Positions 17,700 through 64,000 of a stretch of DNA of 64,000 nt are shown here, one piece after another. Position 1 is the stretch's first letter. Each line of letters starts with the position of its first letter. The translations under genes and the position numbers were made by a program. The notes beneath the pieces were generated by a model that worked only from the letters and a program-made list of their open reading frames with translations, did no database searches and was not told the DNA's origin. The DNA comes from Oscillospiraceae bacterium (lineage in GTDB: Bacteria; Bacillota; Clostridia; Oscillospirales; Oscillospiraceae): assembly GCA_017412585.1 (NCBI GenBank), contig JAFPXK010000024.1, forward strand, positions 1 to 64,000, in the 5' to 3' direction.

Positions 17700-18968
17700 T
17701 CAATCCCGGCGGACAACTTCCCTGCCCTCGGACCATACGGACACGATATTATGGCGGTGGGTCATGTAGATGGCCCGCTCAAACCGCTGCCCCACGGAGA
17801 GGGGCTTTGCCGTCTCCGGGAAATCCCAGTCGTTGATGACGATGGCGTGGAGCATATCCCCCGGCGCAAAGCCCGCCCCGGCGCCGAAATACCGGTGGCC
17901 TGCCGTAGTACCCAGATAATACCCCTCCTCCACGGTGAGGAAGTCGCTCTGCCAGTTGTCCAGCATTCGCCGGGTCTTGCTGGTGCGGATGGTGGCGGCG
18001 ATCACCTTGTACATGGGAAGCTGTGCGCCGCCAGCGATATCGCTGCCCAGCGTCACCTGCAGCCCCTCGTCCAGCATCCGCTTCACCGGGCAAACGCCTG
18101 AGCAGATGTTGGTGTTGGAGTCGGCGCAGTGTACCACCACCACGCCGGCGTCCCGGATGGCCCGGCGCTCCACTTCGTCCGACCAGACGCAGTGGGCCAT
18201 CAGCGTATGATCCTTCCACAGCCCGAACTTGTCGTAGGTCTCCCAATACCGCTGGGTGTCGGGGTGCAGCTCATGGGTAAAGGCGATCTCCTGGTCGTTT
18301 TCGCTGAGGTGGGACTGGACGTAAAGCCCCCGCTCCTTAGCGATGCGCCCCAATGCCGCCATCAGCTCATCGGTGCAGCTGATGGTGAACCGGGGCGTCA
18401 AAATGGGCTTAATATGCTCAAAATGGCACCCTTCCAGCCACCGCAGCGTCTCCCGTATGGACTCCTCCGTGGTCTCCTGTAATAAGCCCGGCTTGCCGTT
18501 GCGGTCCATGTTCACCTTGCCCACGTAGCCGGTGACACCCGCCTTTTCCAGCTCCTCCATCAAAATCCACGTGGCGTCGGTGTGGAGAGAGGAGAACATA
18601 CACACCCGCGTGGTACCGTTGGTAATCAAATCCGAGGCCAGCCGCCGATAGGTACGCCTGGCGTATTCCAAATCGGCAAACCGGGCCTCCACCGGAAAGG
18701 TATAGGTGTCCAGCCAGTCCATCAGCGGCAGGTCCATGCCCATGCCCAGCATGGGGTACTGGGGCCCATGGAGGTGCATATCCGCAAATGACTGCATAAT
18801 AAGGCCGTTGCCGTAGTCGTGTACCGCCGCGTCGGCCCAATCCTCCGGCACGCTGTCGCACACGCCCCGGATGCGGCCATCCTCCAGCAGCAAATACCCC
18901 TGCTCCCTGACGCGAAGCTGCCCCAGCGCCGGCGTGTCAATGATATTGCCCTTCAAAATCTCACGCAT
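17700..18968 (-). CDS. guaD: Guanine deaminase (amidohydrolase)
   Basis: 422 residues of the metal-dependent amidohydrolase superfamily. QSFADMHLHGPQYPMLG supplies the first HxH metal ligands, and the neighbouring GMDLPLMDWLDTYTFPVEA is characteristic of guanine deaminase. YVQSHLSEND and MAHCVW give the later His ligands, and GSDIAGG the catalytic Asp region. The reaction is guanine + water to xanthine + ammonia. GAGGAGG precedes the ATG at 18968; the longer frame into the leader is rejected. The purine riboswitch directly upstream supports the substrate. Confidence 0.92.
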   Translation of the reverse strand: MREILKGNIIDTPALGQLRVREQGYLLLEDGRIRGVCDSVPEDWADAAVHDYGNGLIMQSFADMHLHGPQYPMLGMGMDLPLMDWLDTYTFPVEARFADLEYARRTYRRLASDLITNGTTRVCMFSSLHTDATWILMEELEKAGVTGYVGKVNMDRNGKPGLLQETTEESIRETLRWLEGCHFEHIKPILTPRFTISCTDELMAALGRIAKERGLYVQSHLSENDQEIAFTHELHPDTQRYWETYDKFGLWKDHTLMAHCVWSDEVERRAIRDAGVVVVHCADSNTNICSGVCPVKRMLDEGLQVTLGSDIAGGAQLPMYKVIAATIRTSKTRRMLDNWQSDFLTVEEGYYLGTTAGHRYFGAGAGFAPGDMLHAIVINDWDFPETAKPLSVGQRFERAIYMTHRHNIVSVWSEGREVVRRD

Positions 18969-18986
18969 ACTCTCAGCCTCCTCCCC

Positions 18987-19087
18987 AAAAAACAAAAGAG
19001 CGCCCTGCCGAAAGCAGAACACCCATAGTGGGAGCATAGGTGCCCCCGTAGAGACGCCGCAGGCCAACACCCCGCAGCTATATGGTT
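18987..19087 (-). promoter_or_regulatory. Purine (guanine-type) riboswitch with terminator
   Basis: Minus-strand aptamer, about 19087-19021. P1 is CCATA/TATGG, P2 GCGGG/CCTGC with loop GTGTTGG, J2/3 GTCTCTAC, and P3 GGGGG/CTCCC with loop containing CACC. It closes with J3/1 AC before TATGG. The C of J3/1 matches the guanine-specifying C74 of known aptamers. A terminator follows: arms GGGTGTTCTGC/GCAGGGCGCTC (19024-18998) then TTTTGTTTTTT. The terminator's first bases overlap the 3' arm of P1, so ligand binding may weaken the terminator and turn guaD on. That direction is inference. Confidence 0.8.
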
Positions 19088-19100
19088 ATCTTGTAATTCC

Positions 19101-19128
19101 ATTATAGCACGTCGCCGCCACTTTGCAA
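19101..19128 (-). promoter_or_regulatory. Promoter of the guanine deaminase leader
   Basis: On the minus strand, TTGCAA (19128-19123), 16 bases and a perfect TATAAT (19106-19101). Confidence 0.65.
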
Positions 19129-19142
19129 GTCCATTCTTTTCC

Positions 19143-19171
19143 GCATAAGCCTGTCCCGGCGGTCATAGAAT
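19143..19171 (+). promoter_or_regulatory. Possible sigma-E (mother-cell) promoter of spoIIP
   Basis: GCATAAG (19143-19149), 14 bases, CATAGAAT (19164-19171). This resembles the sigma-E consensus, whose -10 is close to CATACAAT. spoIIP is a sigma-E target in Bacillus. Confidence 0.5.
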
Positions 19172-19194
19172 GAGAGCTGAAAGAGGTGTCACCA

Positions 19195-20310
19195 ATGAAA
19201 ACTTCTCCCCTACGCCGAGGATGCGCCGCACTGACCGCCATAGCCGTCATAGCGGGCAATTATCTGCTGCTGCAAAGCGGTAATAATCAAGGTATTATCG
19301 AGAGTGTAAAGGAATTACACCTGCCATTGAAAATCGTGCAATGGGAGCTGGGGGACCTCTTTGACGCCACCGGACGCATTCCTCCCGGGGCCGTTTTGGC
19401 CCTGCGGCAGTCCCCTGCCCTGTATGCCGCCCGGTATGAAATAGCGGAAACGGCGACCCAAAGTCCCGCCGTCTCCACCCTGCCGCAATCGCCCGGAACC
19501 CCCATTCCCGCGCCCCGGTCCGGCGACCTGACCTTTACGGATAACGGCGTTCCCTCACAGACCACAAAGCCCACCGGCATCGGTGGCTACACGGTGGTGA
19601 ACGGTGTATATATCAAAAATGCCTCCAATAAGACATTAAGCGAAGATGCGCTGACCCAGCCCTTGTCGAATCTCCCCGCGGACGGCGCCCCTCTGGTGCT
19701 GATCATGCACACCCATGGCAGCGAGGCATATACGCCCGCGGAGCCTGTCGAATATGTCAGCGAGGGCACCTACCGCTCCTCCGACCCTGCTTACAGCGTC
19801 ATAGGCGTGGGCGACGCCATGGCAGCCACACTGTCGGAATACGGCATCTCCGTCGTCCATGACCGTACTCTGTATGACGACCCGCTTTATGACGGCTCTT
19901 ACGAGCGCTCAGCCCAGGGCGTGTCGGCTTACCTGGAGAAATACCCCTCCATCGCCTATGTGCTGGATGTACACCGTGACGCCGTGCAGGACAGCAGCGG
20001 CAGGCAGTATAAGCTCATTTCCCAGGAGGACCCCCACGCCGCCCAGATCAGCTTCGTCATGGGCAGCAATCACGACGGCTGGGAGGACAATCTCCGTCTC
20101 GCCATTGCCGTCTCCTCAGCCGCCGTCGCTGACCGTCCCACACTGATGCGCCCCATCACCCTGCGCAACTCCAACTATAATCAGCATCTCTGCTCCGGCT
20201 CCCTGCTGGTGGAGGTGGGCACAGCGGGCAATTCCCCGGAGGAGGCCGTCTATTCCGGTCGCCTCTTTGCCGCCGCACTGGCCCGGGTCATTACGGGGCA
20301 ACCATCATAA
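19195..20310 (+). CDS. spoIIP: Stage II sporulation protein P (peptidoglycan hydrolase)
   Basis: About 371 residues. An N-terminal membrane anchor (ALTAIAVIAGNYLLLQ) is followed by a variable linker and the SpoIIP amidase/endopeptidase domain: LVLIMHTHGSEAYTP (metal His and Glu), YVLDVHRDA and NYNQHLCSGSLLVEVGTAGN. In engulfment SpoIIP acts with SpoIID and SpoIIM to thin septal peptidoglycan. AAGAGGTG eight bases upstream supports ATG 19195 over an in-frame GTG at 19186. The gene is monocistronic and ends at a bidirectional terminator. It marks the organism as an endospore-former. Confidence 0.95.
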   Translation: MKTSPLRRGCAALTAIAVIAGNYLLLQSGNNQGIIESVKELHLPLKIVQWELGDLFDATGRIPPGAVLALRQSPALYAARYEIAETATQSPAVSTLPQSPGTPIPAPRSGDLTFTDNGVPSQTTKPTGIGGYTVVNGVYIKNASNKTLSEDALTQPLSNLPADGAPLVLIMHTHGSEAYTPAEPVEYVSEGTYRSSDPAYSVIGVGDAMAATLSEYGISVVHDRTLYDDPLYDGSYERSAQGVSAYLEKYPSIAYVLDVHRDAVQDSSGRQYKLISQEDPHAAQISFVMGSNHDGWEDNLRLAIAVSSAAVADRPTLMRPITLRNSNYNQHLCSGSLLVEVGTAGNSPEEAVYSGRLFAAALARVITGQPS

Positions 20311-62287: not shown

Positions 62288-62785
62288 TTAGAAGTCGATT
62301 TCTTTCCCCAGGCGGCGGTACATAGTCTTCTTCACCGCCCGCAGAATGTTTTCATAGCCGGTGCAGCGGCACAGGTGGCCGGACAGCAGCTTGCGCAGCT
62401 CGTCGTCGCTGTACAGCTTACCCGCCTCCAAAATCTCCACCGCCGTCATGATGAAGCCCGGCGTGCAGAAGCCGCACTGGATGGCGGCCTCGTCCACGAA
62501 GGCCTGCTGAATGTCGCTGAGCTCTCCGTCGGGTCCCAAAAGGCTCTCCAGCGTGCGGATGTGCTTGCCCTCGGCCCACACCGCCAGATAGATGCAGGAA
62601 TTGAAGCACTCGCCGTCGATCAGCACGTTGCACGCGCCGCACTCGCCCACCTCGCAGCCCTTTTTCACAGAAGTCAAATGGTAGTCGTTGCGCAGCATGT
62701 CGGTCAGCGAGGCCCGCACGTCCACCACCCGCTCCACGTCTTTTCCGTTGATGTTGCAGCGGACAACCTTATACTGTACGCTCAT
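62288..62785 (-). CDS. xdhC: Xanthine dehydrogenase-type 2Fe-2S subunit
   Basis: 165 residues with two [2Fe-2S] clusters: a plant-type CEVGECGACNVLIDGE...NSC site and an all-helical CGFCTPGF...CRCTGY site. This is the small subunit of molybdenum hydroxylases. It overlaps the FAD subunit by four bases. Purine substrate is inferred from the family and not proven. Confidence 0.93.
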   Translation of the reverse strand: MSVQYKVVRCNINGKDVERVVDVRASLTDMLRNDYHLTSVKKGCEVGECGACNVLIDGECFNSCIYLAVWAEGKHIRTLESLLGPDGELSDIQQAFVDEAAIQCGFCTPGFIMTAVEILEAGKLYSDDELRKLLSGHLCRCTGYENILRAVKKTMYRRLGKEIDF

Positions 62786-63672
62786 GCCAGCTCACCTCCC
62801 GCCTTGATAATGGACTCCCGCAGTGCCCGCTTTGCCATTTCCACGGCGATATGCTGGCGAAACGCCTTGCTGGCCCGCCAGGAGTCACGGGGGTTGATGT
62901 CCTCAATGACGGCGTTGCCGAATGCCTCCAGCAGCGCCTCCGTAGGCTTGGCCCCATTGGCCACCGCCTCGGCGGTGGGCACCCGCATGGGCACCGGCCC
63001 CGCCACACCGTAGGCAATGCGGCACCGTTCAATGGTGGACTTGTCAGGGCTGAGCCTCACGTTGACGCTGCACCCCAGGGTGGCGATCTCCATGGCGTTG
63101 CGCAGGCCGTATTTAATATAGTGTCCGTAGCAGTTTTCATAGCTGGCCTTGGGAATGAGGATGGCCGTCTGAATCTCGCCCTCCTCGGCCCGAATGTCCA
63201 CGGTGCCCGCCTTGATGTAGAAATCATGGATGGGCAGCCGGCGAACACCGTTCTTCCCCGCCAGCTCCACAATCGCCTCCCAGGCGTGGAGGGTGGAGGC
63301 GGAGTCGGCGGAGGTCACGCCGTTGCAGGTGTTGCCGCCGATGGTGCCGATGTTGCGGATCTGGGGCGAGCCCACCTGGTCCACCGCCTCGCCCAGCACG
63401 TTGCAATACCGCTGGATGATGGGGTCTTTCGTAATGTGGGAAAAGCTGGTCAGCGAGCCGATGCGGATATTCTCCTCCTCGTCGATGGTCACGCCCCGCA
63501 GCGCGTCGATCCTATAGATGGAGATCAGCTCTTTCCCGGCACGCTTTCCCTCCCGCATCTGCACCAGCACGTCGGAGCCGCCGGCGATGATCTGTGCCTC
63601 CGGGTGGGCCAGACGCAGCGCGATGGCCTCCTCCACGCTGAGCGCCTCATATAACGCTTTCATATCATACAT
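62782..63672 (-). CDS. xdhB: Xanthine dehydrogenase-type FAD-binding subunit
   Basis: 296 residues. AQIIAGGSDVLVQMREGK and IRNIGTIGGNTCNG, the two FAD-binding loops of CO dehydrogenase/xanthine dehydrogenase medium subunits, are clear. AAGGAGGACTGAGCC precedes the ATG. It passes electrons from the Fe-S subunit to NAD or another acceptor. Confidence 0.93.
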   Translation of the reverse strand: MYDMKALYEALSVEEAIALRLAHPEAQIIAGGSDVLVQMREGKRAGKELISIYRIDALRGVTIDEEENIRIGSLTSFSHITKDPIIQRYCNVLGEAVDQVGSPQIRNIGTIGGNTCNGVTSADSASTLHAWEAIVELAGKNGVRRLPIHDFYIKAGTVDIRAEEGEIQTAILIPKASYENCYGHYIKYGLRNAMEIATLGCSVNVRLSPDKSTIERCRIAYGVAGPVPMRVPTAEAVANGAKPTEALLEAFGNAVIEDINPRDSWRASKAFRQHIAVEMAKRALRESIIKAGGELA

Positions 63673-63675
63673 GGC

Positions 63676-64000
63676 TCAGTCCTCCTTACTCCGCCAGGGG
63701 TCATTGATGAGCCCTGCCTTGGTGAACTCCGCAAACAGCACATGGGGATTGATGGGGTTGTGGTCAATGGCCACGCCGGTGGCGTTGAAGATGGCGTTGC
63801 GGATGGCCGGCGCGCCGGAGCAGGCCGGCGGCTCGCCCAGCGCCTTGGTGCCAAAGGGCGACGTAGGCTCCGGGTTCTCCGCAAATTGCGCCTCCAGATG
63901 GGGGTGGTCCATCACGGTGGACAGCTTGTAGTCCAAAAGGTTATTATTCAGCGGCTTGCCCGTCTTTTCGTCAAACAAAAGCTGTTCGGACAGGCCGTAG
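63676..64000 (-). CDS. xdhA: Xanthine dehydrogenase-type molybdenum-binding subunit (C-terminal part)
   Basis: The frame runs off the right edge; about 108 C-terminal residues are visible. FGTKALGEPPACSGAPAIRNAIFNATGV is the conserved end of the large subunit, with the Glu-containing GTKALGEPP block that lies at the molybdenum active site. Order on the minus strand is xdhA-xdhB-xdhC. Substrate specificity cannot be judged from this part. Confidence 0.9.
   Translation of the reverse strand, partial: YGLSEQLLFDEKTGKPLNNNLLDYKLSTVMDHPHLEAQFAENPEPTSPFGTKALGEPPACSGAPAIRNAIFNATGVAIDHNPINPHVLFAEFTKAGLINDPWRSKED

Follow-up and report, generated by a model that had tools for sequence, protein, structure and literature searches.

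A guanine-type purine riboswitch that probably acts as a transcriptional ON switch for a guanine deaminase gene in an Oscillospiraceae bacterium

A stretch of 64,000 nucleotides from an Oscillospiraceae bacterium (contig JAFPXK010000024.1 of assembly GCA_017412585.1, positions 1 to 64,000; hereafter the window) contains on its minus strand a purine riboswitch that precedes the guanine deaminase gene guaD. The element is probably a riboswitch of the guanine-I type, acting on this gene as a transcriptional ON switch. For the group of close and distant guaD leaders there is good support for an ON direction; for the window switch, the binding of guanine, the direction of control in the cell and the size of the effect are what we infer. 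In the proposed mechanism, P2, P3 and P1 would fold while the leader is being transcribed. Without guanine, the 3′ arm of the terminator would displace P1 by strand exchange into its 3′ strand (GGGUG), and the complete hairpin would reach the U tract, so that transcription would stop. Guanine bound at C74 would lock the junction and the inner part of P1, the base of the terminator could then not form, and RNA polymerase would continue into guaD, whose product removes guanine.

When the whole window was searched with cmscan, the single match above its gathering score was RF00167, aligned over model positions 1–102 (E 8e-4 over all families; Table 1); elsewhere in the same genome, RF00167 was matched nowhere at E up to 10. 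The first-pass annotation had placed a guanine-type purine aptamer ahead of a guanine deaminase gene and had named the covariance-model score as a check, and both the score and the protein matches described below agree with it. The J2/3 segment GUCUCUAC and the guanine-recognition C that it had read are present as well. Position numbers such as C74 and U51 follow the B. subtilis xpt aptamer. With J3/1 being AC and J2/3 being GUCUCUAC, the purine-reading base is C74, the guanine form. Among the features of guanine-I, the window has U22, U47, U51, C74 and the P1-P2-P3 junction, and U48 is replaced by C when GUCUCUAC is set against GUUUCUAC. As to a possible L2–L3 contact, GG in L2 and CC in L3 are retained, L3 having only 4 nt and no GUAAA. 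Taken alone, the aptamer part has an unremarkable folding energy (z −1.22).

In the Rfam alignment the window carries one extra C ahead of J2/3, a one-nucleotide J2-3 insertion being one of the criteria of the guanine-II class. This C probably adds one P2 pair with G24; the two co-occur in 13 of the 35 close guaD leaders of the comparison below, as an added pair would need. Three other classes were considered and rejected: guanine-II, as the J3-1 insertion is absent and just two nucleotides separate P3 from P1; xanthine-II, as U51 is kept and U51G is not seen; and the adenine class, as the reading base is C74 and not U74.

Table 1. Features of the guaD leader and gene in the window (all on the minus strand)
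Feature	Position	Strand	Remarks
Promoter-like site TTGCAA-16-TATAAT, TG ahead of the -10	19101..19128	-	10/12 matches; 1 found, shuffle mean 0.1
Purine riboswitch aptamer RF00167 with flanks	19006..19105	-	43.2 bits, gathering 37
P1 5′ strand UAACCAUA	19081..19088	-	inner pairs CCAUA/UAUGG (5), next A x G mismatch
P2, L2 = GUGUUGG	19056..19078	-	nt 24 = G; extra C ahead of J2/3
J2/3 GUCUCUAC	19048..19055	-	U47, C48, U51
P3, loop CCUA (4 nt)	19030..19047	-	without the usual GUAAA part
J3/1 AC	19028..19029	-	its C is C74, the guanine-pairing base of the class
P1 3′ strand UAUGGGUG	19020..19027	-	common to the terminator 5′ arm
Intrinsic terminator hairpin, 12 pairs	18998..19024	-	-15.8 kcal/mol
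U tract UUUUGUUUUUU, 11 nt	18987..18997	-	sequence
Shine-Dalgarno-like GGGGAGGAGG	18977..18986	-	ATG 8 nt downstream
Guanine deaminase gene guaD, 422 aa, amidohydrolase type	17700..18968	-	ATG at 18968

The terminator hairpin (GGGUGUUCUGC-loop-GCAGGGCGCUC followed by UUUUGUUUUU) was the sole terminator-like site within 18850–19250 (shuffle mean 0.4, sd 0.8). Its stem had been said to start inside the 3′ strand of P1, and it does so, at the fourth base of UAUGGGUG; its 5′ arm uses five of the eight nucleotides of that strand, the arrangement of a pbuE-type ON platform. From P1 to the U tract, the RNA folds with −43.4 kcal/mol (z −3.16), which 0 of 200 shuffles equalled. A stage II sporulation protein P gene (window 19186–20310, plus strand) lies divergent from guaD.

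The best NCBIfam model by far for the guaD product, scanned as 17703–18968 on the minus strand, was TIGR02967, guanine deaminase (E 4.5e-90), with a score below the equivalog cut-off (302.5 versus 375.4 bits). Its best solved relatives were 2i9u, a cytosine/guanine deaminase related protein (E 1.6e-95), and 2uz9, a human-type guanine deaminase (E 3.2e-68). The genome also encodes a xanthine phosphoribosyltransferase (over the cut-off) and an NCS2 permease nearest to uracil permeases, and on the same contig as guaD are XdhB, XdhA, a selenium-dependent xanthine dehydrogenase and SelD. None of these other loci (xanthine phosphoribosyltransferase, NCS2, the Xdh cluster, SelD) had an RF00167 match at E up to 10. 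Since genes for Xdh and xanthine phosphoribosyltransferase are present, xanthine derived from guanine could be oxidised or salvaged, and making the deaminase only under guanine excess would fit the purine physiology suggested by this gene content. Within the window, XdhB is contained and XdhA begins near the end (62782–63669 and 63676–64000, both minus strand, running past the window end; L177); the selenium-dependent xanthine dehydrogenase and SelD come after them on the contig.

The aptamer recurs with guaD. It was found in 18 of 32 genus genomes at E up to 0.01 (17 above the cut-off), and in all 18 the next gene was guaD. A protein search matched guaD in 21 of the 32 genomes; the aptamer-bearing genomes coincide one for one with the 18 whose copy reaches 70% identity or more, and no aptamer lies beside the three remote homologues in the genus (38–39%). 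On public contigs, 35 guaD relatives were found, and directly upstream of 19 of them lies an aptamer above the cut-off. This number is a minimum, since one or more further leaders fall narrowly short of the cut-off (36.2). Among the hosts are a cultured strain, Agathobaculum butyriciproducens DSM 100391 (L015), which holds a relative, and metagenome-assembled genomes labelled Oscillospiraceae, Oscillibacter, Bacilli and Spirochaetales, although such labels can be in error. Across the family, a match was obtained in 89 of 300 genomes.

These searches gave 131 aptamer records (18 from the genus, 19 from public contigs, 30 and 64 from the family), which reduced to 111 distinct leaders; 3 of the 67 family matches from outside the genus, all under the cut-off, were left out. 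Gene classes were assigned from one Pfam-scanned representative per BLAST cluster: 35 close guaD leaders (55–100% identical), 18 distant guaD (38–45%), 27 BMP-type transporter, 9 xpt-type phosphoribosyltransferase, 7 NCS2 permease, 4 adenine deaminase, 4 FAD-dependent protein and 7 others. C74 is present in 35/35 close and 18/18 distant guaD leaders, and the adenine deaminase cluster has U74, the adenine form, in three leaders and C74 in one. The predicted ligand is thus the substrate of the enzyme in both groups, with one C74 exception in the adenine group. The loop motif CC[GA][UC]AA occurs in 25/27 BMP leaders, as against 0/35 close guaD and 0/9 xpt leaders. Close guaD leaders have a shortened L3 (window 19037–19040), and this shortening may lower the affinity.

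The ON topology that had been proposed for the window is shared across the guaD leaders. Under a lenient measure, in which the terminator may reach up to P3 and must use 3 nt or more of the P1 3′ strand in its 5′ arm, overlap was seen in the window, in all 35 close guaD leaders and in all 15 distant ones with a terminator (18 distant in all), versus one of nine xpt leaders. It was also seen in adenine deaminase (3/4), FAD-dependent protein (4/4), other (6/7), NCS2 (4/6) and BMP (7/26) leaders. The ON topology is therefore not exclusive to guaD, and some of the lenient overlaps outside guaD (e.g. L125, L130 and L136), with pairing across the U tract, look like folding artefacts. A strict measure required a contiguous stem and began its scan at the P1 3′ strand, so that deep terminators, as in the distant guaD and adenine deaminase leaders, escape it; it gave 32/34 close guaD leaders versus 8/51 for all other classes pooled (xpt 0/9, BMP 3/26, NCS2 1/4), and Fisher values on such counts take related leaders as independent and so overstate significance.

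The guaD leaders have two terminator designs. P1 alone is taken in the close ones, where P3 is involved in 0/35, versus P1 plus P3 in the distant ones (15/15); P3 is also taken in all three U74 leaders. The adenine deaminase leaders serve as an internal control, U74 in 3/4 going with the same ON topology. In the close guaD leaders, covariation links the shared bases of the P1 3′ strand to both of their partners: at base 5 of this strand, 9 of 34 read U-A-U and one A-U-A, and the remaining ones have G, with C, U or A on the P1 side and C or U on the terminator side. The aptamer helices covary as well (RNAalifold, 34 leaders, 95.7% of cells paired, a figure without a shuffle baseline; L115 was dropped from this set only). 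We lean slightly towards a wider reading, in which the guanine-I aptamers found on guanine deaminase form a broad catabolic ON branch, with a shallow P1-only terminator in the window type (guaD at least 55% identical) and a deep, pbuE-like one taking P1 and P3 with distant guaD and U74 adenine deaminase. There the enzyme would exert direct negative feedback by destroying the ligand, and in some members two whole ON switches would stand in series.

The response to a ligand was explored by computation. As long as the 3′ arm of the terminator has not been transcribed, the window leader with its natural 5′ flank adopts the aptamer fold, P1 reaching about 0.44 without ligand; in the whole leader the terminator wins. 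A rough equilibrium model that required the four lowest terminator pairs gave 0.925 terminator for the window without ligand and 0.025 at 1000 x Kd. Among close guaD leaders, the terminator fell more than twofold in 29/34 at 100,000 x Kd and rose in 0/34, and three leaders terminated at less than 0.1 even without ligand. This model called OFF just 2/9 xpt and 8/26 BMP leaders; with so few xpt leaders called, it is a weak control and cannot prove the direction. For L115 the model rows are meaningless, its P1 slice being out of register.

The first-pass annotation had expected a stable ligand-bound P1 to compete with the terminator. For the window's own sequence this is borne out only in part. 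The window and its near twins have A x G at the sixth position of P1, and with five good pairs followed by this mismatch, bound P1 takes away those two pairs only. When the five inner P1 pairs were held, a residual terminator of 10 bp (−12.2 kcal/mol) persisted, with a spacer of 2 nt (UC) to the U tract. The coexistence of this hairpin with a 5-bp bound P1 makes the size of the effect in the window uncertain, and if a working terminator is defined leniently, hardly any switching would be expected of the window. Across the close guaD leaders, the bound state had the hairpin base at least 4 nt off the U tract, or no hairpin, in 24/34; the spacer was 2 nt in eight (window included) and 3 nt in one, and L115 was out of register. 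From this spacing the group looks ON, and the switch of the window itself may be shallow.

These results bear on an alternative in which the lineage of the window has a poorly switching or non-switching attenuator: guanine would be bound, the residual terminator would go on halting transcription, and guaD would stay low and nearly constant. The bound window and its near twin L003 do retain the 10-bp hairpin with the 2-nt spacer, even when six P1 pairs are required, and the energies of the 112-nt window leader (−45.1 unconstrained, −43.5 with P1 held and the residual terminator present, −31.8 when the 3′ arm of the terminator was in addition kept open) point the same way. However, the junction nucleotides, C74 and the shared strand are conserved in the lineage, and the hairpin and U tract have been retained as a pair together with the aptamer; we regard such an attenuator as unlikely.

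An OFF switch is a good deal less probable. Here the 5′ strand of L3/P3 would pair with the P1 3′ strand in the ligand-free RNA and block the terminator, and guanine would favour P1 plus a shortened terminator that stops transcription. A transcript lacking the 5′ flank does fold into this helix, and the residual terminator is compatible with P1; once the natural flank was included, however, the helix had a probability of 0.02 before and 0.00 after the terminator was made, and the L3:P1-3′ antiterminator was rejected. Among the leaders it exceeded 0.5 in 5/34 before the terminator and in 0/34 after, and in the equilibrium model no leader of the 34 gained termination with ligand. Equally improbable is another ligand, such as xanthine (the product), guanosine or 2′-deoxyguanosine: variants of the fold are described as sensing xanthine and 2′-dG (PMC9295807) and the window has U48C and one extra nucleotide before J2/3, yet U22, U51 and C74 are retained, neither a J3/1 insertion nor the U51G of xanthine-II is present, and U48C is frequent elsewhere (12/35 close guaD and 16/27 BMP leaders).

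The guanine-I ON switch that we prefer combines known parts, the aptamer class and the ON logic being already known. In the adenine riboswitch of Vibrio vulnificus add, too, the ligand is the substrate of the deaminase that is switched on; that switch differs in sensing adenine and in acting on translation. With guanine-I (RF00167, xpt type) the window shares the three-stem aptamer, C74, U51 and the J2/3 and J1/2 core. Descriptions of natural guanine-I switches are mainly of OFF devices: guanine riboswitches are reported commonly to lower expression at high guanine, mostly on synthesis, salvage and uptake genes (PMC9295807), whereas the window has an ON topology, a degradation gene and a short L3. 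One account of C. difficile lists four purine riboswitches, all OFF and none of those listed on a deaminase (PMC11477304), and a guanine OFF switch on a regulator has been described (PMC9430930). Some riboswitches in general are said to activate degradation genes (PMC2258182).

As the source describes it, the B. subtilis pbuE adenine riboswitch likewise has its P1 3′ strand taken into the terminator by strand exchange, which the ligand blocks; it differs in sensing adenine (U74), in controlling efflux and in a terminator that takes P3 too, against just 5 nt of P1 in the window (PMC7707468). The layout described there (PMC7707468) is that of the distant guaD leaders and the U74 leaders, which also take P3. 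The same account reports an engineered xpt aptamer on the pbuE platform that gives about 14-fold induction, a guanine-type aptamer driving an ON terminator as in the window, in a man-made chimera (PMC7707468). An ON direction has been predicted for guanine-II, xanthine-II and 2′-dG-III (PMC9295807). Guanine-II, from Paenibacillus, is also a guanine aptamer, with J2-3 and J3-1 insertions and mainly before phosphoribosyltransferase genes, whereas the window lacks the J3-1 insertion; 2′-dG-III and xanthine-II share the scaffold and lie on catabolic genes, with other junction bases (U51G in xanthine-II) and other ligands (PMC9295807).

Searches of the open-licence literature (text, without figures or supplements) yielded no natural guanine-I ON switch ahead of guaD, which does not prove its absence from print. 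If the conserved ON branch is true, a single aptamer fold would be used in whichever direction matches the role of the gene (off for salvage, on for degradation), and the branch would be a source of natural guanine-inducible parts. The window type makes it testable how small the strand overlap of an ON terminator switch can be (here 2 to 5 nt).

Several other leaders have arrangements of their own. In L086, L101 and L117, two guanine aptamers lie in series ahead of distant guaD; in L101 and L117 each of the two has its own deep ON-type terminator, and in L086 one was found for the first aptamer only. L090 has two purine aptamers, with Rfam matches overlapping by 9 nt, ahead of an NCS2-type permease, and its single long terminator invades the second aptamer. 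The U74 aptamers of L064, L070 and L083 precede adenine deaminase genes; their terminators are long and almost perfect, and they take P1 as well as P3. Guanine-type aptamers with ON topology were also seen ahead of a xanthine-dehydrogenase-like protein (L105), the FAD-dependent protein cluster (L102, L122, L135 and L137) and a MATE transporter (L112).
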